A stretch of DNA of 49,109 bases from Methanomassiliicoccales archaeon (GTDB taxonomy: Archaea > Thermoplasmatota > Thermoplasmata > Methanomassiliicoccales > UBA472), in the NCBI GenBank assembly GCA_036504055.1, contig DASXVU010000022.1, positions 1 through 49,109 of the forward strand, in the 5' to 3' direction. The position numbers were made by a program, and so were the translations under genes. Below are positions 23,092-34,944 of this stretch, in pieces. Each line of letters begins with the position of its first letter. Positions within the stretch are counted from its first letter, which is position 1. The notes beneath the pieces were generated by a model, which did no database searches, was not told the origin of the DNA, and saw only the letters and a list, made by a program, of their open reading frames with translations.

Positions 23092-23640
23092 CTATGGCGA
23101 TGCGGATCTCATGAAACGGTCGATGATCGTCCTGGGGTCCATACCAACCAATGGGCATTCCATCACTTCCGGGGTGACCTTTGCCACGATAAGTCTGGTT
23201 TTCCGATCCTGGAGCGCTTTGAGAAGGGCCTGTTCATCGGAAACGATCGAAACCTCCTCAAAGCCAGCCCCCAGGGCGATGGAGGCCAGGTCCGCTCTCC
23301 TGGAGGACAATGTGGCCTGGCCCCCGGTGGACCCATATGACCCGTTGTCAATGATGACCAACAGGTAGTTCTCCGGCGACCTGTCCGCTATTGTGGCCAG
23401 CGAACCGAGGTTCATGAGAACCGAACCGTCACCGTCGATCGCTATGATCCTCTCGTCTTGGCATGCCATGGCCAATCCCAATCCGATGGAAGATGCCAGT
23501 CCCATCGAACCGAGCATATAGAAGTGTCTGGGCGAGTCCCTGATCGAGAAAAGTTCCCGTGATGGGTCGCCGATATTGCAGACGATAAGGCTTCCGGATT
23601 CCCGTTCAGCGATGACCCATAGTGCATCCACTCTCTTCAA
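23092..23640 (-). CDS. comE: Sulfopyruvate decarboxylase, beta subunit (thiamine-diphosphate domain)
   Basis: 182 residues with the ThDP-binding motif: GDGSVLMNLGSLATI, then about twenty residues, then IIDNGSYGSTGG, and a GSMGLASSIGLGLAMA stretch before it. With the alpha subunit it decarboxylates sulfopyruvate to sulfoacetaldehyde in coenzyme M synthesis. A TTG at 23640 is the start: it overlaps the comD stop (TTGA) and has GGAGGTG eight bases before it. The last residues match the YIIDPRTI-like end of the family. It ends 117 bases from ftsZ, with which it is convergent. Confidence 0.9.
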   Translation of the reverse strand: MKRVDALWVIAERESGSLIVCNIGDPSRELFSIRDSPRHFYMLGSMGLASSIGLGLAMACQDERIIAIDGDGSVLMNLGSLATIADRSPENYLLVIIDNGSYGSTGGQATLSSRRADLASIALGAGFEEVSIVSDEQALLKALQDRKTRLIVAKVTPEVMECPLVGMDPRTIIDRFMRSASP

Positions 23641-24161
23641 GATCGGCACCTCCAGTATTCCAGGTCGAAGAGCAATGCGACCGGCTTCCTCTCTCTGGAG
23701 GCGGTGGCCGCCGCCTTCGCTACGCGGTCCTCCGAATCGACCGGATCGGGCGACCAATGCTCTATACCGATCGCATCAAGCAACGGGACCGTGGCCTTTC
23801 CCATCGGTACCTGGCCGTCCACTTTTTCCCCCATCGTCCCCCGGTGGGAGATGATCATCAGCAATGGTATTCCGTAGAGCATGTTCAAAGAGGTCAGGGC
23901 ATTGACCGAATTGCCCAAACCGGAGTTCTGCATCAGGATGGCTGGCCGTTTGCCCCCCATATAAGCGCCGGCGCATACGCCCACTCCCTCCTCCTCTCTG
24001 GTGACCGGGACATGGACCACGTCCGGGTCGTCAGAGATCAACTTGAGAAGGGGACCGAGCTTGACGCAAGGTACGCTGGTGACGAAGTCGATCCCCCCGC
24101 GCTTGAGCCCGCGAAATATCCGCTCACTGTTAACGTCATCGCGGTCGGTACGAACGTTCAT
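23637..24161 (-). CDS. comD: Sulfopyruvate decarboxylase, alpha subunit
   Basis: 174 residues equal to the pyrimidine-binding half of ThDP enzymes. IDFVTSVPC near the start, TREEEGVGVCAGAYMGG (with the conserved glutamate) and LMQNSGLGNSVNALTSL are characteristic of ComD. It pairs with ComE for the fourth enzyme step towards coenzyme M. The ATG at 24161 overlaps the upstream stop as ATGA; the longer frame is not used. In some methanogens comD and comE are fused; here they are separate. Confidence 0.92.
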   Translation of the reverse strand: MNVRTDRDDVNSERIFRGLKRGGIDFVTSVPCVKLGPLLKLISDDPDVVHVPVTREEEGVGVCAGAYMGGKRPAILMQNSGLGNSVNALTSLNMLYGIPLLMIISHRGTMGEKVDGQVPMGKATVPLLDAIGIEHWSPDPVDSEDRVAKAAATASRERKPVALLFDLEYWRCRS

Positions 24162-24784
24162 CCCCAGACCTTCAGGTCCACGCTCTCTATCCTGACCTTG
24201 TCCCCTTCCGATTTGACCACCACCCCGGAATGCACCTTCTGCATCATGCAACGGTGGGGAATGAACCTAACGGTCTCGCCGATCTCCAGGATCTTGTCGT
24301 TCATGACCACTCCCTCGAACGCGGCGACCATGCAGATGCCGACGTCGACGGGCGGCCGTTCATCGATCCCGATCCGGGATTGAGGGCCGATCACCTGGAC
24401 GGTCAATATCGAGTGGTCAAGGGCGATGACCTGGGCGAAGTGCACTATCGGACATCCCAGGCAGCGGTAGGACACCTTGTCCCCGATCCCCACCTTCGCC
24501 TCCCGGTCGAATGGGAAGATGTGCTCCCGGCACGAGGGTTCGCCGGGCAGTGGCGCCAATATCACGTCGGACGAGCCCCCGCCTACCAAGGCGGAGACGC
24601 TCTCCCTTTCTCTCCTTTCCAGCGACTCCCTGAGCTTCTCCAGGTTCTCGGCGTACCGTTCCTGGGAAAGCATCGAGCAGTCCTCGAGCTTCGATCCCTT
24701 CCCCAGCGCCGCAGCGAAGCGGCGGCAGTTAGGCAGTCCACATTGTCCACAGTTGAATCCCGGCAACAGTTCCACTATTCCCAT
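24158..24784 (-). CDS. 4Fe-4S-motif protein linked to coenzyme M genes
   Basis: 208 residues. The N-terminus, GFNCGQCGLPNC...CSML, places Cys12, 15, 20 and 36 in the 4Fe-4S motif known from the Rnf B subunit and the CO dehydrogenase/acetyl-CoA synthase corrinoid subunits. A coiled middle (EKLRESLERRERES) and a ~100-residue C-terminal domain with VSYRCLGCPIVHF and IPHRCMMQK follow; I cannot name that domain. The ATG at 24784 follows GGGAGAGTGAGAAC, in the tail of the upstream GTPase gene. It sits directly before comD with ATGA coupling, so a role in coenzyme M synthesis, for example electron or sulfur delivery to sulfoacetaldehyde, is inferred. Confidence 0.75.
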   Translation of the reverse strand: MGIVELLPGFNCGQCGLPNCRRFAAALGKGSKLEDCSMLSQERYAENLEKLRESLERRERESVSALVGGGSSDVILAPLPGEPSCREHIFPFDREAKVGIGDKVSYRCLGCPIVHFAQVIALDHSILTVQVIGPQSRIGIDERPPVDVGICMVAAFEGVVMNDKILEIGETVRFIPHRCMMQKVHSGVVVKSEGDKVRIESVDLKVWG

Positions 24785-24788
24785 GTTC

Positions 24789-25487
24789 TCACTCTCCCGA
24801 ATAAAAGACCGACCCATCGATGTGTCTGAGCACACCACGGTGGTGCTCCTTCCCAGTTCTCATCTCCCCGGCGCATAGGGTGCATATTCCAAGCGGGGGC
24901 GTGTGCCTGAGCCTCATGTCATCGTCGACCTCGACGGCCTCCAATACCAGCTCGGCAAAATCCGCCGAGCCTTTCCCAGTGAGTCCATTGGCCTCCACCA
25001 GCATGCAGGCCGGGTTCACTTCCAGGACCCTTTCCCTGAACACCTCCCTCTCTGCCTGGGAGACCATGTCCCCCTTGGTGATCACGACCAGGTCGGCTGT
25101 CACCAGCATTGGCCCGATCTTGAGCGGGGTGTTCGGTCCCACCGTCGCGTCGATCACGCAAACCGCCAGGCACTTGTTTGGATAGGGGGCGCAGCGAAGG
25201 CAGAGCCCGGCCGTTTCCACCAGCAGGACATCCGAGTTCTCCGATCTCGCCCATTCCACCATGCCGTCCGTGTTGAAGGCGGCGAAGTGGTCCGGGCACA
25301 TGTCCCGCGATAGTCCGACCTTGATCGGTATTCCATAGGCCTGGAGCCTCTTCTCATCATCGGTCCAGAGACAATCGATCTTGACCAACGCCGGTCTGAG
25401 GGCCTTTCGTTTCAAAACTTCGATCAGCCCTATCAATACCGATGTCTTTCCCGATCCCGGGGTCCCGGCCACGACCACCAGCCTCAT
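24789..25487 (-). CDS. P-loop GTPase of the CobW/HypB type, Cys-rich
   Basis: 232 residues. Walker A is [10 protein letters not shown] (residues 8-17); TKGD near residue 140 is the base-recognition motif. A cysteine-rich loop, [12 protein letters not shown], lies in the position of the switch after ETAG, and a second Cxx[10 protein letters not shown], is near the C-terminus. HypB/CobW proteins use GTP to insert metals; the cysteines here could bind a metal or an Fe-S cluster. It shares a four-base overlap with the gene before it and precedes the 4Fe-4S protein and comDE, so it probably matures or drives a coenzyme M-linked enzyme. That is inference. Confidence 0.75.
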
Positions 25488-25885
25488 GATGAGTTCACCA
25501 CCCCGCCGTTGCGGATGATCTCACGAAGACCGAGGATATGCTCGTCCATCTCGGTAAGCCGATGGCATGCCTGCTCCTCTTGGGAGCTACGCTCCAGTAC
25601 AGCACGCATCCCACCGCCGGCCATGATGATACGGCGTTTCGCCACCATCGCCAGCCCGAAGCCGGTGTTGCCTGACGTGCTCTCCACCAAGGACGATCCT
25701 TCTTTCAGTTCACCCGACGACTCGGCCTTTGTCACCATGGACAGGGCTATCCTATCCTTCGAGCTGCCGCCCGGGTTCATGAACTCGAGCTTGACCAATA
25801 CGGTGGCATCGAGCCCTCTCGCTAGCCGGTTTAATTTCACCAAAGGCGTCCGGCCGATGGTCTCAAGTATGCTGTTGCTCCACAT
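25484..25885 (-). pseudogene. Chimeric remnant of a cysteine-synthase-type enzyme (first gene of the com operon)
   Basis: 133 residues. Residues 1-82 match the N-terminus of a fold-type II PLP enzyme (cysteine synthase family): [14 protein letters not shown], the PLP lysine in GGSSKDRIA and the phosphate loop [14 protein letters not shown]. At that point the enzyme stops, and ~50 unrelated residues follow ([16 protein letters not shown], then [17 protein letters not shown]). No frame restores the missing ~220 residues before the next gene, which overlaps the stop as ATGA. So the rest was deleted and the stub fused to another reading frame. The tail may be the surviving part of a small conserved gene. 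Catalysis is not expected. It may still be translated to couple the operon. Confidence 0.65.
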
Positions 25886-26101
25886 GTTCAAAACTCTCCA
25901 CAACACACGCCCATAAGCGGAATCCTGCATGAGGTGTGAAGAACGAATTCCCTACGTGCGTCTGGACGCGCCATGAGAAGGTGAATCTCGAAGGAGGATT
26001 GCCGATCCTAGAATCGTTGACCGAGTTGGCCAGAATTCCTTTGACAACAAAGACAATCCCTTCGATACATCCATTGAGGGAACGGTAGTGCAATATATAA
26101 C

Positions 26102-26452: not shown

Positions 26453-26683
26453 ATGGCAGAGATCAAGGTCGATTGCATGGGCAGGAACTGTCCAACGCCA
26501 CTGGTTGAAACCAGGAAAGCGCTGCGAAGGGCGAAGATCGGAGATGTCATTGAGATCACCGGTGACCATCCAGCTTCCAAGAAGGAAATTCCCATGGCAG
26601 TTACGTCCTTGGGACAGGAACTCCTTGACATAAAGGACGAGGGAAAGACCTGGCGAATACGGATCAAGAAAGTGAAGGAGTGA
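26453..26683 (+). CDS. TusA-family sulfur-carrier protein
   Basis: 76 residues with the CPxP signature: Cys13 in GRNCPTPLVETRKAL, the residue that carries persulfide. A second cysteine (Cys8) sits five residues before it. The rest is the small alpha-beta fold of TusA/SirA (PMAVTSLGQELLDI). The ATG at 26453 has a GGTGG site before it; the longer frame starting at 26417 is not needed. It is the first gene of a tight operon: DsrE-like protein 6 bases on, then a desulfurase homologue and IscU, so it probably hands sulfur along this chain. Confidence 0.92.
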   Translation: MAEIKVDCMGRNCPTPLVETRKALRRAKIGDVIEITGDHPASKKEIPMAVTSLGQELLDIKDEGKTWRIRIKKVKE

Positions 26684-26688
26684 GATAA

Positions 26689-27108
26689 ATGGCAGAAAGG
26701 GCTACGATAATCCTTCACAGCGGGGATATGGACAAGGTCTATAGCGCGCTCATAATCGGGAATGGGGCGCTCTCCATGGGCATGGAGGCGACCATCTATT
26801 TCACCTTCTGGGGCCTCCAAAGGCTAAAGAAGGGCGGGTTAGATAAAGGAAAACTCTCAAAGATGAACATGCTCGGCCTGGGACGCTCCATGGTAAGATC
26901 AAGGATGGCCAAGGCCGGAGTCGCTGAGCTTGAAAAATTAATGAGCGACTACAAAGAACTGGGCGGAAAGATAATAGCATGCGAGATGACAATGGAGGTC
27001 ATGGGCATCAAGAAAGAGGACCTGAGGCTCGAGCTCATCGACGAGTTCGGAGCTGTAGGTACATACGTCAACGATGCTAAGGACTCCAAGATAACGCTCT
27101 TCATTTGA
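26689..27108 (+). CDS. DsrE/DsrE2-like sulfurtransferase
   Basis: 139 residues of the DsrE fold: ATIILHSGDMDKVYSALIIGNGALSMG, the TFWGL segment typical of DsrE2-like proteins, and a conserved cysteine, Cys98, in GGKIIACEMTMEVMGI. DsrE proteins often form hexamers and accept persulfide from TusA. It starts 6 bases after tusA with GAGATAA upstream. The pairing TusA-DsrE is a known sulfur-relay module; here its downstream partner is a desulfurase homologue with a changed active site. Confidence 0.88.
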   Translation: MAERATIILHSGDMDKVYSALIIGNGALSMGMEATIYFTFWGLQRLKKGGLDKGKLSKMNMLGLGRSMVRSRMAKAGVAELEKLMSDYKELGGKIIACEMTMEVMGIKKEDLRLELIDEFGAVGTYVNDAKDSKITLFI

Positions 27109-27117
27109 GGTGATGAC

Positions 27118-28278
27118 ATGAAAGACAAGGTACATTATTTGGACAATTCGGCCACCACAAGGCTGGATGATCGAGTGCTGGAGGCGATGAGGCCATACTT
27201 CCTCGAACATTATGCGGTAGCGACTTCCGAGTTCGGATATTCCATGGGGTTGGATTCGAGGGAGGCGCTTGACGAAGCCAGGGCATCGATGACGAAATTC
27301 CTGGGGGCAACCCCGGAAGAATTGGTCTTCACTTCGGGCGACACGGAATCGAGCAACACGGCGGTCAAAGGCGCGGTCAAGGCGAACCGGAAAAAGGGAA
27401 AGCATATCATCATTTCCAAGCTCGAGGACTTCCCCGTCCTCAACAGCGCTAAGACGCTGGAGCAGGAAGGAAATTCGGTCACCTACCTGGACGTTGACGC
27501 CGAGGGCTTTGTGGACACCGACAAACTTCAGTCCAGCATCACACCCGAAACGGTCCTGGTCTCCATCCAACACGCCAATCAGGAGATCGGAACGGTTCAG
27601 GACATCAAGGCCGTGGCGGACATATGCCATGACAAAGGCGTCCTATATCATGCAGACGCCACCCATACGTTCCGGCGCCTTCCGCTGGATGTTTCTAAGA
27701 TACCGGTCGATCTTCTTACGATCGCCGCCCATACCATTCACGGACCAAAGGGCGTCGGTGGACTCTTCATCCGGAAGGGAACCCAGATATCCAAATGGAT
27801 GGACGGTGGATTCCAGGAAGCCAACCGGAGGGCAGGCCTGGAGAACATCCCCGGAATCATCGGGTTCGCGAAGGCCGCCGAACTGGTCACGGATGAGGAG
27901 AATGAGTACATCAGGGGTTTGCGGGACGGTCTGATCAAACGCATGATGGAAGCAGTGCCCCAAACCATTCTGAACGGCTCAGCGTCCAAGAGGACCCCGC
28001 AGAATGCCAACATCACCTTCCACTACGTCGAAGGCGAATCGATCACCCTGCACCTGGACATGAGGGGATTCGAGGTCAGTACAGGCTCGGCCTGCTTCAG
28101 CCGGACATTGGAGGCCAGCCACGTGATTATGGGCATCGGCGGAAACCACGAGCGGGCCCATGGTTCGATCCGGTTCACCTTCAGCCGGTTCAACGACATG
28201 GAGGATGTGGACGCGGCCGTCGAATCGTGCGCAGAGATCATAGCCAACCTGAGGAAGATCAGTCCATTGAAGAAGTAA
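27118..28278 (+). CDS. IscS/NifS-like protein lacking the PLP lysine
   Basis: 386 residues, IscS-like throughout (YLDNSATTRLDDRVLEAM, SGDTESSNTA, STGSACFSR). Key residues, whose positions match E. coli IscS numbering, are changed: residue 206, where the PLP lysine should be (HK-x-GPKG), is Thr in HTIHGPKG; His104 is Asp; Gln183 is His. Asp180 and the mobile-loop cysteine (Cys326) are kept. So it should not bind PLP covalently or run the normal desulfurase reaction. I recall that the Archaeoglobus IscS also lacks this lysine and may serve as a cluster-assembly partner. The gene follows the DsrE-like gene by nine bases and precedes IscU by nine, so a sulfur-accepting or scaffold-partner role is plausible. 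Confidence 0.9.
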   Translation: MKDKVHYLDNSATTRLDDRVLEAMRPYFLEHYAVATSEFGYSMGLDSREALDEARASMTKFLGATPEELVFTSGDTESSNTAVKGAVKANRKKGKHIIISKLEDFPVLNSAKTLEQEGNSVTYLDVDAEGFVDTDKLQSSITPETVLVSIQHANQEIGTVQDIKAVADICHDKGVLYHADATHTFRRLPLDVSKIPVDLLTIAAHTIHGPKGVGGLFIRKGTQISKWMDGGFQEANRRAGLENIPGIIGFAKAAELVTDEENEYIRGLRDGLIKRMMEAVPQTILNGSASKRTPQNANITFHYVEGESITLHLDMRGFEVSTGSACFSRTLEASHVIMGIGGNHERAHGSIRFTFSRFNDMEDVDAAVESCAEIIANLRKISPLKK

Positions 28279-28287
28279 GGTGAAAAA

Positions 28288-28929
28288 ATGAAATTCCCAT
28301 ACAACGAAACGGTGCTGGAGCACTTCAAGAATCCAAAGAACGTAGGAAAGATCGAGAACGCGGACGGCAAGGCCATGGTGGGCAGTCCTGCCTGCGGCGA
28401 CATGGTGGCACTCTATGTAATGGTGGACGAGGCGACAAAGGTCATAACCGACATAAAGTTCGAGTCGTACGGTTGTGCCTCAAACATCGCCACCGCTTCC
28501 ATCATCACCGAGCTCGCCAAGGGCAAGACGATCGACAAGGCAAAGGAGATCAGCTGGAGGGATGCGGCGGATGCATTGGGAGGGCTGCCGAAGGTCAAGG
28601 TACACTGCTCCGTGCTGGCGGTCGAGGCTCTCCACGAAGCCATAACCAACTATGAGGAGAGGCACGGGCTGGTCAAAGAGAAGGTACCGACCACGGTGGA
28701 GATCGTGCAGCGCCGGCTGAAGACCGTCATGAACCCACTCGCCGGCCTGGACATCGTCCGGACCGAGATGGTGAAGGACATCAAAGTGGAGGATGGAGTT
28801 GTTTCGATCGACCTCGATCTGGCCGTGAACAACCTGTTCGCTTCCAATATCGAGGAGGAGATCAAGGAGAAGATCGGGAACATCTGGGACGTCAAAGAGG
28901 TCAAGATCAAGTTCGGGGACCCGGTGTGA
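28288..28929 (+). CDS. IscU-type scaffold fused to a DUF59 domain
   Basis: 213 residues. Residues 1-125 are IscU: ACGDMV with Cys36, YGCASN with Cys63 and VHCSV with Cys107, the three cluster ligands. Residues ~135-213 are a separate domain, VEIVQRRLKTVMNPLAGLDIV...VKDIKVEDGVVSIDL, resembling DUF59 (MIP18/SufT-like), which in other organisms acts in cluster maturation. The start has AAGGTGAAAAA before it. As the last gene of the tusA operon it likely receives sulfur and iron to build clusters. The fusion is less common than stand-alone IscU. Confidence 0.88.
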   Translation: MKFPYNETVLEHFKNPKNVGKIENADGKAMVGSPACGDMVALYVMVDEATKVITDIKFESYGCASNIATASIITELAKGKTIDKAKEISWRDAADALGGLPKVKVHCSVLAVEALHEAITNYEERHGLVKEKVPTTVEIVQRRLKTVMNPLAGLDIVRTEMVKDIKVEDGVVSIDLDLAVNNLFASNIEEEIKEKIGNIWDVKEVKIKFGDPV

Positions 28930-29082: not shown

Positions 29083-29496
29083 ATGAAAGAAAACGAGGTC
29101 GCGAAGTCGTTGGTGGAGAAGAAAGCATCACTGCTGCTGGGCGGACGGGTAAAGATACCTTCGGACATGAAGCTCCCTTACAGGACTAGTTGTTCCACCG
29201 CCGGACCAGGAGCGGGGAGCACGGGGATAGTGCTCACCTTCGGCGGCATGAGGGTCAAGAAGGCGGTATCCCGTGAGGATGGGGACTTCGAACTGGTCCC
29301 TCACGACGGCCGTTACTCCCTATGGCGCAACGGCAAGATGTTCATCGAGGATGTGGAGATCAAGCCCGTGGTCTTCCATGCACCGGGACAGGCGTTCTTC
29401 AACCTTGACAATCGCTGCATCTACGGCTGCACCTTCTGCTCATCCCCTCTTCTGGATGAGGGACTGGACAAGGCAGATGGGAATGGAGAACGATGA
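29083..29496 (+). pseudogene. Truncated radical SAM protein (N-terminal part)
   Basis: 137 residues. The N-terminal part has KIPSDMKLPYRTSCSTAGPGAGSTG and AFFNLDNRCIYGCTFCSSP, the last being the CxxxCxxC motif that binds the radical SAM cluster. The protein should then run on for 200 or more residues, but the frame stops about fifteen residues after the motif. From 29456 another frame takes over, encoding short repeats. I take the gene as cut by a deletion or by the expansion of the repeat. The enzyme cannot act as it stands. An operator-like copy lies just upstream. Confidence 0.7.
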
Positions 29497-29851
29497 CTTT
29501 GCCATTTATTTGGGCAGAGAGCTGGGCAGGGCGTTCAAGGACCTTGGCAAGGAAGAGAGGGACTGGACGAGACAGATGGTGTTGGACAATGAGGAATTTG
29601 CCATGTATCTGGGCCGGGAATTTGGACGATCGTTCAAGGAACTCAGAAAGGACGAAAGGGAGTGGACATGGCAGCACGCCATGGAGAACTATAGCTTCGC
29701 AATATACCTGGGCCGGGAGCTCGGAAGGGCATTCAACAAGCTGGGCAGTGAAGAGAGAGACTGGGTGATGAAGAGCGAGCGCTTCGCCAAGGGCCTGGGC
29801 TGGGGCATCGGGGATTCGTCCGATGACCTGAGCAAGGATAGAAAGACGTAG
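29456..29851 (+). CDS. Repeat protein: three copies of a 33-residue motif
   Basis: 131 residues if started at the ATG at 29456. The unit is RDWTRQM, then a short D/N-rich stretch, then FAIYLGRELGRAFKDLGKEE, repeated three times in close copies (starts near residues 2, 35 and 68) with a degenerate fourth. DNA period is 99 bases. The first copy overlaps the end of the radical SAM frame, in another frame. The sequence is helical and charged. Function unknown. It may be a newly expanded frame rather than a conserved gene; alternative ATGs lie at 29477 and 29483. Confidence 0.5.
   Translation: MRDWTRQMGMENDDFAIYLGRELGRAFKDLGKEERDWTRQMVLDNEEFAMYLGREFGRSFKELRKDEREWTWQHAMENYSFAIYLGRELGRAFNKLGSEERDWVMKSERFAKGLGWGIGDSSDDLSKDRKT
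29459..29755 (+). repeat. 99-bp tandem repeat, three copies
   Basis: Three tandem 99-base units starting around 29459, 29558 and 29657. They share gggactggacnnnacag-like starts and a later tatctgggccggga-like core. Copies differ by substitutions but keep the frame, so each encodes the same 33-residue motif. Confidence 0.7.
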
Positions 29852-31114: not shown

Positions 31115-31554
31115 TGGAGTTCTTTTTATCCAAGGTATGGCTGTTCGTGTGCGGCATCGCCGTCACCAGCGTGCTGGTTCTGGCGTTCTCCGGGTTGGGC
31201 CATTCCGTGACCGACGACGAATCCCAGCGCCGGGTCGCTCAGATGGCAGATGCCCTGGACTCCGTTTCTGATTCACCTGACAATGTCCATATGACCATAA
31301 GGGTGGCGGACTACCTGCCGGATGGGAAGTCCCATCTCCTGATGTCGAAGGGATAAATCTGCATCGAATCCGGAGGCGTACGGAAATATGCGATAATGCA
31401 CTCCTCTATATCCGTTAACGACAGCAATGGCACCAGCTCGGACAGCCTTACACTGGTCCATGGTGATATTCTCATTGTAACCAAGGACCCTGCGGGTAAA
31501 GGTATCATCCAGGTTCAGGTGGCGAAGGAACGTACCGTCTCCTTGACCGCCTGA
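31111..31554 (+). pseudogene. Pilus-associated protein gene interrupted by an in-frame TAA
   Basis: The gene begins MEFFLSKVWLFVCGIAV, an N-terminal helix, and runs 81 residues to TAA (31354-31356). The same frame then continues without a stop for 65 more codons (ICIESGGVRKY... GDILIVTKDPAGKGIIQVQVAKERTVSLTA) to TGA at 31552-31554. The continuation looks like the missing C-terminal beta domain of a pilin-like protein, so the TAA is probably a nonsense change. Alternatives are a sequence error or stop-codon read-through; TAA is not the pyrrolysine codon. Its last 40 bases overlap the convergent SufS-type gene. Confidence 0.6.
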
Positions 31555-32726
31555 ACAAATCGTTCGCAATCGTTCTTGCTGGTGTAGAGATAAAATGATG
31601 CGCGGGCTGCCCCGTCGATCTCCCTTTTCAGGAAGAACGGATGAACGCAATGCATACCCGACCGGATCATTATCCCGGACATCTCGTCCAGGATCATGGC
31701 CACGTCGTGCGAGCGCATGCCGCTGATGTTGAACGAGTAGATGCTGCCGCGCGATTCCGGGTCCTCAGGACCTATGACGGTTATCTTCTCCTCTCCCGCC
31801 AGGCCTTCGGTGACGATACGGTTGCATTCGATGTCGTGCTCCATCACATCGTCCATACCGATCGTCCTCAGGTAGTCGACAGCCGTCCCGGAACCGATGA
31901 TGCCAGCATAGTTCAGCAGACCGGACTCGAAGCGTTCCGGTATGGGGAGCAGGTCCACCTTGTCATAGGTGGTCAGGCTCACCCCGCCGCCGCCGACTAT
32001 CAGGGGATCGACGTTATCGAGCAGTTCCTTCTTGCCGTAAAGGACGCCCACCCCGGAAGGGCCGAGCATCTTGTGCATCGAGAATGCGAAGAAATCAACG
32101 TCCATGTCCTCCATGTCGACCTTCATGTGCGGTGCCGACTGCGCCCCGTCGACCATGACCAGCGAGCCATTGTCATGCGATATCTCGCAGATCTCCTTGA
32201 CCGGGATGGTAGTGCCGGTGACGTTGTTGGTCTGGACCACGCTGACGAGCCTGACCTTCTTACTGAGGGCCTGCTTGAGCGCTTCAAGGTCAAATGACCC
32301 GTCCTCCGGTGTGTCGACTATGACCCGATCCACGCCATCGGTCTTCTTAAGCAAAAGCCAGGGGACATGGTTGCTGTTATGCTCCATGTCCGTCGTTAGC
32401 ACCGCATCCCCTTTCTTGAGGCCAAGGCCGCGGGCGATCAGGTTGATCGATTCGGTCGCGTTCTTGGTGAAGATGACCTGGTCGTACGAATCCGAACCGA
32501 TGAAATCAGATATCTTCTCCCTCGCTTCGTCGACCTTGATCGAGACCTGGGTGGCCAGGCGGTGCACGCTCCTCCCGCCGCAGGCAGGATATTCATAATA
32601 ATATGAATCCATGGCCTCGACCACCTGTCTGGGCCTGAGGCTCTGGCACGCCGTATCAAGGTAGACCGGGCTCTTCTCCCCTTTTGAAAGAATGGGAAAA
32701 TCGCCCCTTATCCTATCGATGTCCAT
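31515..32726 (-). CDS. SufS-type cysteine desulfurase
   Basis: 403 residues, group II (SufS/CsdA) type. Present are YLDTACQSLRP, TKNATESINL, HNSNHVPW, the PLP lysine Lys219 in MHKMLGPSG, and the catalytic cysteine Cys360 in RSGMHCVHPF. It releases sulfur from cysteine to make persulfide. It stands alone, without sufBCD. It is divergent from the unknown gene at 32864. Unlike the desulfurase homologue at 27118-28278, its active site is complete. Confidence 0.93.
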   Translation of the reverse strand: MDIDRIRGDFPILSKGEKSPVYLDTACQSLRPRQVVEAMDSYYYEYPACGGRSVHRLATQVSIKVDEAREKISDFIGSDSYDQVIFTKNATESINLIARGLGLKKGDAVLTTDMEHNSNHVPWLLLKKTDGVDRVIVDTPEDGSFDLEALKQALSKKVRLVSVVQTNNVTGTTIPVKEICEISHDNGSLVMVDGAQSAPHMKVDMEDMDVDFFAFSMHKMLGPSGVGVLYGKKELLDNVDPLIVGGGGVSLTTYDKVDLLPIPERFESGLLNYAGIIGSGTAVDYLRTIGMDDVMEHDIECNRIVTEGLAGEEKITVIGPEDPESRGSIYSFNISGMRSHDVAMILDEMSGIMIRSGMHCVHPFFLKREIDGAARASFYLYTSKNDCERFVQAVKETVRSFAT

Positions 32727-33774: not shown

Positions 33775-34944
33775 TTGAACGTGACGTATTTCGACAACAG
33801 CGCGACAACGAACGTCGACCCGAGGGTCCTGGAAGCAATGAAACCATTCTTCCTCGAGAGGTATGGTAACCCATCGAGCCTTCACAGCCTTGGCAGGAGC
33901 GCGGAAGAGGCAATGACCGCCTCCAGGGAAAAGGTCGCCAGGGCGATCAACTCAAATTCCAGTGAGGTGGTCTTCACCGGCGGGGGCACCGAAGCGGACA
34001 ACATGGCACTGCAAGGCTACGTCTTCGCCAACCGGAAAAGGGGCAATCATATCATCACCACCAGGATCGAGCATCACGCGATCCTGAACACCTGCGAGTT
34101 CCTGGAAAGAGAAGGTTTCAGGGTAACATATCTGCCGGTGGACGAGTTCGGATTGGTCGATCCGGAGAAGGTCAAGGAGGCGGTCACCCGGGAGACCCTG
34201 ATCGTTTCCGTTATGGCGGCCAACAACGAGATCGGCACGATCGAGCCGGTGAGGGCTATAGCGGAGATCGCCCATGACAAGGGGGCGGTCATGCACACCG
34301 ATGCCGTCCAGTCCATCACCAAGGTACGTACCGACGTGGTCAAGGAACATATCGACATGCTGTCCATGTCCGGCCACAAGTTCCATGCGCCGAAGGGGAT
34401 CGGAGCTCTATACTTGAAGACCGGGGTCAAGATACGGCCGCTCGTATACGGCGGGGGTCAGGAGCGTGGGTTGCGCTCATCCACCGAGAACATCCCAGGT
34501 ATCGTGGGCACCGGCAAGGCGATCGAACTGAGCATGGCCGAGTTCGACGATGATGTCCAGAAAATGACCCGGATGAGGGATAGAATGATCAAGGGAGTCC
34601 TGTCGACCATCTCAGACTCTCACCTGAACGGCCACCCCACAGAACGGCTATGCAACAACGCACATTTCCGGTTCGATGGGGTGGAAGGCGAGTCGTTGCT
34701 GATCTACCTGGACCAGCAGGGTTTCTGTGTCTCCACCGGATCGGCCTGTTCCTCCAGGTCGACCGGGCCCTCGCATGTGCTTTCGGCTCTGGGACTTCAA
34801 CGCGAGCAGATGCACGGCTCACTCCGCGCGAGCCTGTCCAAGTTCAATACCATGGAAGAGATCGACCGCTTCCTAGAAGTAGCACCCTCGGTGGTAAAGA
34901 AATTAAGGGAGATGTCTCCAATGTATGATGCGAAGGTGTGTTAG
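33775..34944 (+). CDS. iscS: IscS/NifS cysteine desulfurase (complete active site)
   Basis: 389 residues. It starts with a TTG behind GGAGATG. YFDNSATTNVDPRVLEAM is the IscS start, HH at residues 100-101 (position of His104 in E. coli), PLP lysine Lys202 in SGHKFHAPKG, and the catalytic Cys325 in STGSACSSRS. It therefore should form persulfide normally. It is followed by an IscU gene after one base, and the pair forms an operon. Compare the homologue at 27118, which lacks the lysine. Confidence 0.96.
   Translation: MNVTYFDNSATTNVDPRVLEAMKPFFLERYGNPSSLHSLGRSAEEAMTASREKVARAINSNSSEVVFTGGGTEADNMALQGYVFANRKRGNHIITTRIEHHAILNTCEFLEREGFRVTYLPVDEFGLVDPEKVKEAVTRETLIVSVMAANNEIGTIEPVRAIAEIAHDKGAVMHTDAVQSITKVRTDVVKEHIDMLSMSGHKFHAPKGIGALYLKTGVKIRPLVYGGGQERGLRSSTENIPGIVGTGKAIELSMAEFDDDVQKMTRMRDRMIKGVLSTISDSHLNGHPTERLCNNAHFRFDGVEGESLLIYLDQQGFCVSTGSACSSRSTGPSHVLSALGLQREQMHGSLRASLSKFNTMEEIDRFLEVAPSVVKKLREMSPMYDAKVC

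Follow-up and report, generated by a model that had tools for sequence, protein, structure and literature searches.

Organization of the locus

The window analysed here is a 49,109-nucleotide stretch of DNA from a Methanomassiliicoccales archaeon with a genome of 2.66 Mb. It carries a row of four genes, encoding a TusA sulfur carrier, a DsrE2-related putative sulfurtransferase, a protein of the IscS fold without the PLP lysine, and an IscU scaffold fused to a DUF59 domain (Table 1). We refer to the third gene as iscS*, to its product as IscS* and to the four genes together as the cassette. The original prediction placed these genes less than 10 bases apart, and the ORF coordinates bear this out, with gaps of 5, 9 and 9 bases and a single direction throughout.

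TusA has the CPxP motif of its family, the cysteine of which is kept in 65 cassette TusA proteins. The DsrE-like protein matches Pfam DrsE_2 and, at 67.2 bits, falls below the cut-off of 210 of SulfCarrDsrE2, the NCBIfam equivalog for DsrE2. Its cysteine is kept across 64 homologues, in a motif that reads CeMTM in the type with Thr in place of the IscS lysine (K-to-T) and Ce.S in the type with Asp (K-to-D). The IscU part retains the three cluster-ligand cysteines and the Asp of an IscU scaffold (SPACGDM, YGCASN and HCSVLA), and the fused DUF59/FeS_assembly_P domain is free of cysteine. Genes for a normal, lysine-bearing NifS and for a SufS lie 3-6 kb downstream of the cassette. In the closest relative, a further IscS-like copy near the cassette contains stop codons and is in two pieces (G032:C4:290793-291871, minus strand).

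Several other features were noted in the window. Upstream of the cassette, comD/comE-like genes encode sulfopyruvate decarboxylase subunits, a coenzyme M biosynthesis pair (TIGR03845 over its cut-off at 3.9e-62, TIGR03846 just under it at 6e-65), and are adjoined by a gene for a HypB/CobW-like GTPase. Beside these coenzyme M genes, a 148-aa ORF resembles cysteine synthase/cystathionine beta-synthase over roughly the initial 80 residues and no further, and looks like a truncated remnant. Downstream of the cassette, a 137-aa ORF has a CIYGCTFC motif like that of radical SAM proteins, gave no Pfam match and runs into a 99-bp tandem repeat (2.1 copies), which is read in an overlapping ORF; this stretch is possibly a disrupted radical SAM gene.

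Table 1. Features of the window; residue states are counts among 71 K-to-T-type homologues of IscS*.
Feature	Position	Strand	Remarks
comD/comE-like pair	23092-24251	-	sulfopyruvate decarboxylase subunits
HypB/CobW-like GTPase	24789-25487		
148-aa ORF	25484-25930	-	partial cysteine synthase-like match
tusA	26453..26683	+	TusA sulfur carrier; Pfam TusA 1.3e-22; Cys-Pro-x-Pro motif (GRNCPTPL)
dsrE-like (DsrE2-related)	26689..27108	+	putative sulfurtransferase; Pfam DrsE_2 6.1e-36; conserved Cys in IIACEMTMEVMGI
iscS*	27118..28278	+	IscS-fold protein without PLP lysine; Pfam Aminotran_5 5.5e-69
Asp104 codon	27427..27429	+	catalytic His in canonical IscS; D in 71/71
Asp180 codon	27655..27657	+	kept; D in 71/71
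His183 codon	27664..27666	+	Gln in canonical IscS; H in 71/71
Thr206 codon	27733..27735	+	PLP lysine in canonical IscS; T in 68/71, L in 3/71
Cys326 codon	28093..28095	+	persulfide-loop cysteine (STGSACFSR); C in 71/71
iscU-DUF59	28288..28929	+	Pfam NifU_N 1.5e-44 and FeS_assembly_P (DUF59) 3.1e-13
137-aa ORF	29083-29851	+	radical-SAM-like motif
99-bp tandem repeat	29458-29668		
sufS	31515-32726	-	
nifS	33775-34944	+	lysine-bearing

Pocket and fold of IscS*

The five residues that the original prediction had named (T206, D104, H183, D180 and C326) were all recovered when IscS* was aligned with IscS of E. coli K-12. The motif around the former lysine position reads AAHTIHGPKG, compared with (S/A)HK(I/F)xGPKG in canonical proteins. 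Changes beyond those named in the original prediction are T243L (L241 in the protein's own numbering) and N155Q, both in the PLP pocket, and H/K105F. The GNPSSxH loop of the K-to-T homologues, including IscS*, has a two-residue insertion. D104, F105, Q151, Q155, H183, K226 and F327 are invariant in the 71 K-to-T-type homologues, in which position 243 is mostly Leu or Val, and T76, D180 and H205 are kept in IscS*, H205 being nearly invariant. The dN/dS of iscS* is 0.05-0.07, and this value together with the invariant remodelled pocket indicates that IscS* is maintained and has not decayed. A pseudogene, chance or a sequencing error was ruled out by the same residues in 71 homologues and by the same ratio.

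An AlphaFold (AF2) model of IscS* has the IscS fold with a mean pLDDT of 86.5, and Foldseek matched it to Nfs1/IscS structures with TMq values of 0.90-0.93, among them 4eb5, the A. fulgidus IscS-IscU complex. The low-confidence loops of the model (32-41, 229-240 and 325-330) include the former PLP loop and the Cys loop. IscS* scores below the NCBIfam equivalog cut-offs (439.5 vs 530.75 for TIGR03402 and 350.9 vs 643.2 for TIGR02006). Of the features that mark a cysteine desulfurase it has the fold type I aminotransferase-V fold and the loop cysteine, but not K206, the catalytic His104 or the PLP contacts Gln183 and Thr243. Since the PLP lysine, the catalytic His and several PLP contacts have been lost and fixed residues stand in their place, it is very improbable that IscS* acts as a cysteine desulfurase, in agreement with the original view that it probably draws no sulfur from cysteine. 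Judged by its residues, the protein would be expected neither to bind PLP nor to have desulfurase activity.

Linkage of lysine loss with tusA and dsrE

For the linkage count, loci from Thermoplasmatota, Halobacteriota and their relatives were fetched with IscS queries only, and an iscS gene was scored as linked if tusA and/or dsrE lay no more than 2.6 kb away on its own strand; the lysine-bearing loci had comparable flanks. Linkage was found for 58 of 61 lysine-less IscS genes and for 0 of 73 lysine-bearing ones (Fisher p 8e-35, a value that counts genomes and not phylogenetic events and so overstates the evidence, the lysine-less states having only few independent origins). An artefact of fetching loci via DsrE can be dismissed, as the loci obtained in that way (L039-L101) were set aside and the count still stood at 58/61. 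The K-to-D family, which includes the A. fulgidus protein, is linked to tusA/dsrE as well, with a single one of the two genes detected in 16 of 43 K-to-D/E loci. A third lysine-less type, K-to-Q (HDANQC), is linked in 4/4 cases in Dehalococcoidia, where lysine-bearing IscS is linked in 0/24, and all 30 IscS proteins from Clostridia bear the lysine, with 0/30 linked. The original prediction would have lysine-less IscS genes tied to tusA and dsrE in related genomes, and we observe this tie almost universally, in separate clades and in A. fulgidus too. Three lysine-less relatives of the K-to-V and K-to-L kinds (L121, L211 and L125) have Arg at position 104; two of them, the K-to-V proteins L121 and L211, have no TusA/DsrE nearby.

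The order of the genes is tusA-dsrE-iscS-iscU in archaea and in the K-to-T loci of Dehalococcoidia, iscS-iscU-tusA-dsrE in Anaerolineae and iscS-iscU-dsrE-tusA in the K-to-Q group (L329, L335, L339 and L343, all Dehalococcoidia). These differing orders point to repeated assembly, which argues for a function of the association. No fifth cassette gene or common upstream sulfur source was shared across the groups in the neighbourhoods. In an Anaerolineae locus (L076, 4020-4822, plus strand), genes for a glutaredoxin and for a protein with ferredoxin-thioredoxin reductase (FTR) beta and rubredoxin domains come directly after dsrE. The same two genes follow the cassette in several Chloroflexi loci, and only in Chloroflexi; it is plausible that their products are reductants of persulfide.

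Distribution and origins

When 84,980 species genomes were searched with the DsrE protein, 63 loci were found in archaea and bacteria, at 65-80% identity, and the four genes occur together in nearly all of those with a long enough contig. The hosts, with MAG names as deposited, are Methanomassiliicoccales, Methanosarcina, Methanothrix, Methanofastidiosa, Methanobacteriaceae, Anaerolineae, Dehalococcoidia and a few others. Within Thermoplasmatota the cassette is largely restricted to Methanomassiliicoccales, and it is present in 2 of 148 Dehalococcoidia, so that its distribution is patchy and transfer-like.

In our trees the K-to-D and K-to-T proteins form separate clades, and the K-to-Q group lies among lysine-bearing sequences (support 87/92). 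A single origin of lysine loss is disfavoured, as a tree with all lysine-less sequences in a single clade was rejected (p-AU 0.0046; 0.061 once the lysine-bearing L099 was added to that clade). The lysine has probably been lost independently at least twice, and probably three or more times. Possible intermediates are found in a bacterial sister group that has an AVASSxFSH loop in common. Its three members without tusA/dsrE nearby (G691, G701 and G700, the last on a short contig) all have the lysine, and in G691 the whole catalytic set is present. Of the members with tusA-dsrE, three have the lysine, with Q183 already replaced by Leu, one has Arg and one has Leu. These few genomes suggest, as the simplest reading, that the arrival of the carrier genes preceded the loss of the lysine, as would be expected if another sulfur source had made cysteine cleavage dispensable. 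The three genomes that keep the lysine beside tusA-dsrE indicate that linkage does not demand its loss.

Proposed role of the cassette

Because all relay cysteines are conserved (the CPxP cysteine of TusA, the DsrE cysteine, the IscS loop cysteine and, in IscU, three cysteines with the Asp), feeding of IscU with persulfide is favoured, and on balance we lean towards TusA and DsrE supplying persulfide sulfur to IscU through or beside IscS*, in place of cysteine. TusA and the DsrE-like protein would carry, as a protein persulfide, sulfur that originates outside the cassette, in sulfide/sulfane sulfur or in another enzyme. IscS* resembles IscS in its fold and its mobile loop cysteine, and presumably in how it docks to IscU, but would no longer cut cysteine; it would either accept sulfur on Cys326 or hold TusA/DsrE and IscU together. 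The sulfur would then reach the three-cysteine site of IscU, where the cluster would be built. The residues are consistent with a flow from TusA/DsrE to Cys326 of IscS* and on to IscU; that persulfide is transferred, in which direction and from which initial donor is inferred. More tentatively, with a little less than even confidence, we suggest that the lysine-less proteins represent a widespread and repeatedly evolved Fe-S route, in which a desulfurase has turned into a non-enzymatic acceptor or adaptor fed by TusA-DsrE persulfide and cysteine is no longer a donor.

The hosts of lysine-less IscS genes mostly live anaerobically and in the presence of sulfide, which counts for an alternative in which no sulfur is carried by IscS*, whose loop cysteine would instead complete the ligands of a nascent [2Fe-2S] cluster on IscU. 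Free sulfide would be the source, and TusA/DsrE would serve another step or buffer sulfide. Such a role has been published for the K-to-D relative from A. fulgidus, which has no desulfurase activity and whose cysteine ligates the cluster in the IscS-IscU complex (Marinoni 2012 and Pagnier 2014, as reported in PMC7585200). A ligand role of this kind is compatible with a persulfide feed and is also the main rival to it. We consider this alternative unlikely; it leaves unexplained the near-constant adjacency of tusA/dsrE and their repeated recruitment in different orders. In E. coli, sulfur flows from IscS to TusA, and TusA/DsrE could likewise be recipients here, with IscS* taking persulfide from normal desulfurases for tRNA thiolation or other thio-cofactors and IscU as a second client. 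Structures matching the fold of IscS* include the complex 3lvj, and the NifS and SufS encoded close by in the window's genome could supply TusA in the usual direction, which also counts against the persulfide feed. However, the constant partner is iscU and not a thiolase, and no IscS/SufS-like match at E<=1e-40 besides the K-to-D protein was found in eight Archaeoglobales genomes. Moreover, the K-to-T protein is the sole IscS/SufS-like protein in one Methanothrix and one Dehalococcoidia MAG, both possibly incomplete; the leftover class-V matches tested were BhcA- or SerC-like aminotransferases. An outward flow of this kind seems improbable to us.

Two further alternatives concern the pocket itself. 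D104, D180, H183 and the nearly invariant H205 might bind a metal or another ligand and confer a new catalytic activity, and the replacement residues are indeed fixed, not drifting, in archaea and bacteria. We give this little credence: it is read from residue identity, the pocket loops are of low confidence in the model and the K-to-D clade has another set of residues (H, D/N, A, N, D). IscS* might also bind PLP non-covalently and have residual desulfurase or other PLP activity, with Lys226 or a partner subunit as the base. The retention of D180, T76 and H205 and the invariance of K226 would suit such binding, but H104, Q183, K206 and T243 are all lost, and the A. fulgidus protein, though less degraded, is reported to be inactive (PMC7585200), making this highly improbable.

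Relationship to known systems

The A. fulgidus structures raised the question of how anaerobic archaea with an inactive IscS come by the sulfur for their Fe-S clusters. The pattern described here, a lost lysine with TusA/DsrE adjoining, recurs across separate lineages and has intermediates. It points to specific candidates for the sulfur donor and opens the question to testing in Methanosarcina, which can be cultured and is genetically tractable. If the persulfide feed is correct, there would be a cysteine-independent route of Fe-S assembly in organisms living with sulfide, and a non-enzymatic acceptor or adaptor would also account for the puzzling inactivity of A. fulgidus IscS.

Lysine-less IscS as such is already known from A. 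fulgidus and M. acetivorans. By phmmer, the solved structure nearest to IscS* is A. fulgidus IscS (AF0564-type; 4eb5, 4hvk and 4r5f). The original prediction was right that a lysine-less protein has been described in that species: wild-type 4eb5 reads SSNDIYGPKG, with Asp for the lysine, and the engineered 4r5f has Lys. Like IscS*, the A. fulgidus protein has the IscS fold, no PLP lysine, the loop cysteine and an adjoining IscU, and in its type tusA/dsrE and iscU are adjacent. It differs in being K-to-D, Q183A and H205N with H104 kept, in its IscU without DUF59, in a DsrE of another subfamily and in belonging to a separate clade. A. fulgidus also has an intact tusA-dsrE-iscS-iscU set (L164), whose IscS is 87% identical to the crystallised copy (L163). 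Upstream of the latter lies a truncated dsrE (L163, 5045-5329, plus strand), no neighbouring tusA was detected, and the copy that was crystallised has the look of a duplicate that has been trimmed.

The loci of Methanosarcina resemble that of the window, being 64-67% identical and having D104, H183, T206, C326, the SACFS loop, an IscU of about 24 kDa (IscU-DUF59) and TusA and DsrE upstream; the likeness of M. acetivorans IscS1/IscU1 (MA0808/MA0807) rests on Methanosarcina loci among L041-L078. In the text available to us, PMC7585200 reports that IscS1 is without the lysine, gives its STGSACFS motif, states that the protein was insoluble and was not assayed, and lists four further genes in the cluster to which no function is assigned there; that text neither names TusA/DsrE nor proposes a persulfide feed. 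The main text of an M. barkeri proteome paper (PMC10846266), as far as available, has nothing on this gene set. The original prediction knew of no description tying a lysine-less IscS to TusA and DsrE, and in the open literature searched we likewise found none of this tie, its recurrence or the intermediates; Garcia 2022 (on MIS) and Pagnier 2014 may mention them.

Canonical IscS/NifS and the ISC and MIS systems (IscS-IscU and MisS-MisU) share the fold, the loop cysteine and the IscU partner with IscS*, which has lost the lysine, the catalytic His, Gln183 and Thr243 and has TusA and DsrE in its gene set. The Rhd-TusA-DsrE2 relays of sulfur-oxidising bacteria are like the cassette in that TusA and a DsrE-family carrier pass on persulfide sulfur. 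Unlike these relays, the cassette has no dissimilatory Dsr/Hdr genes among its shared neighbours, and its linked partner is IscS*-IscU.
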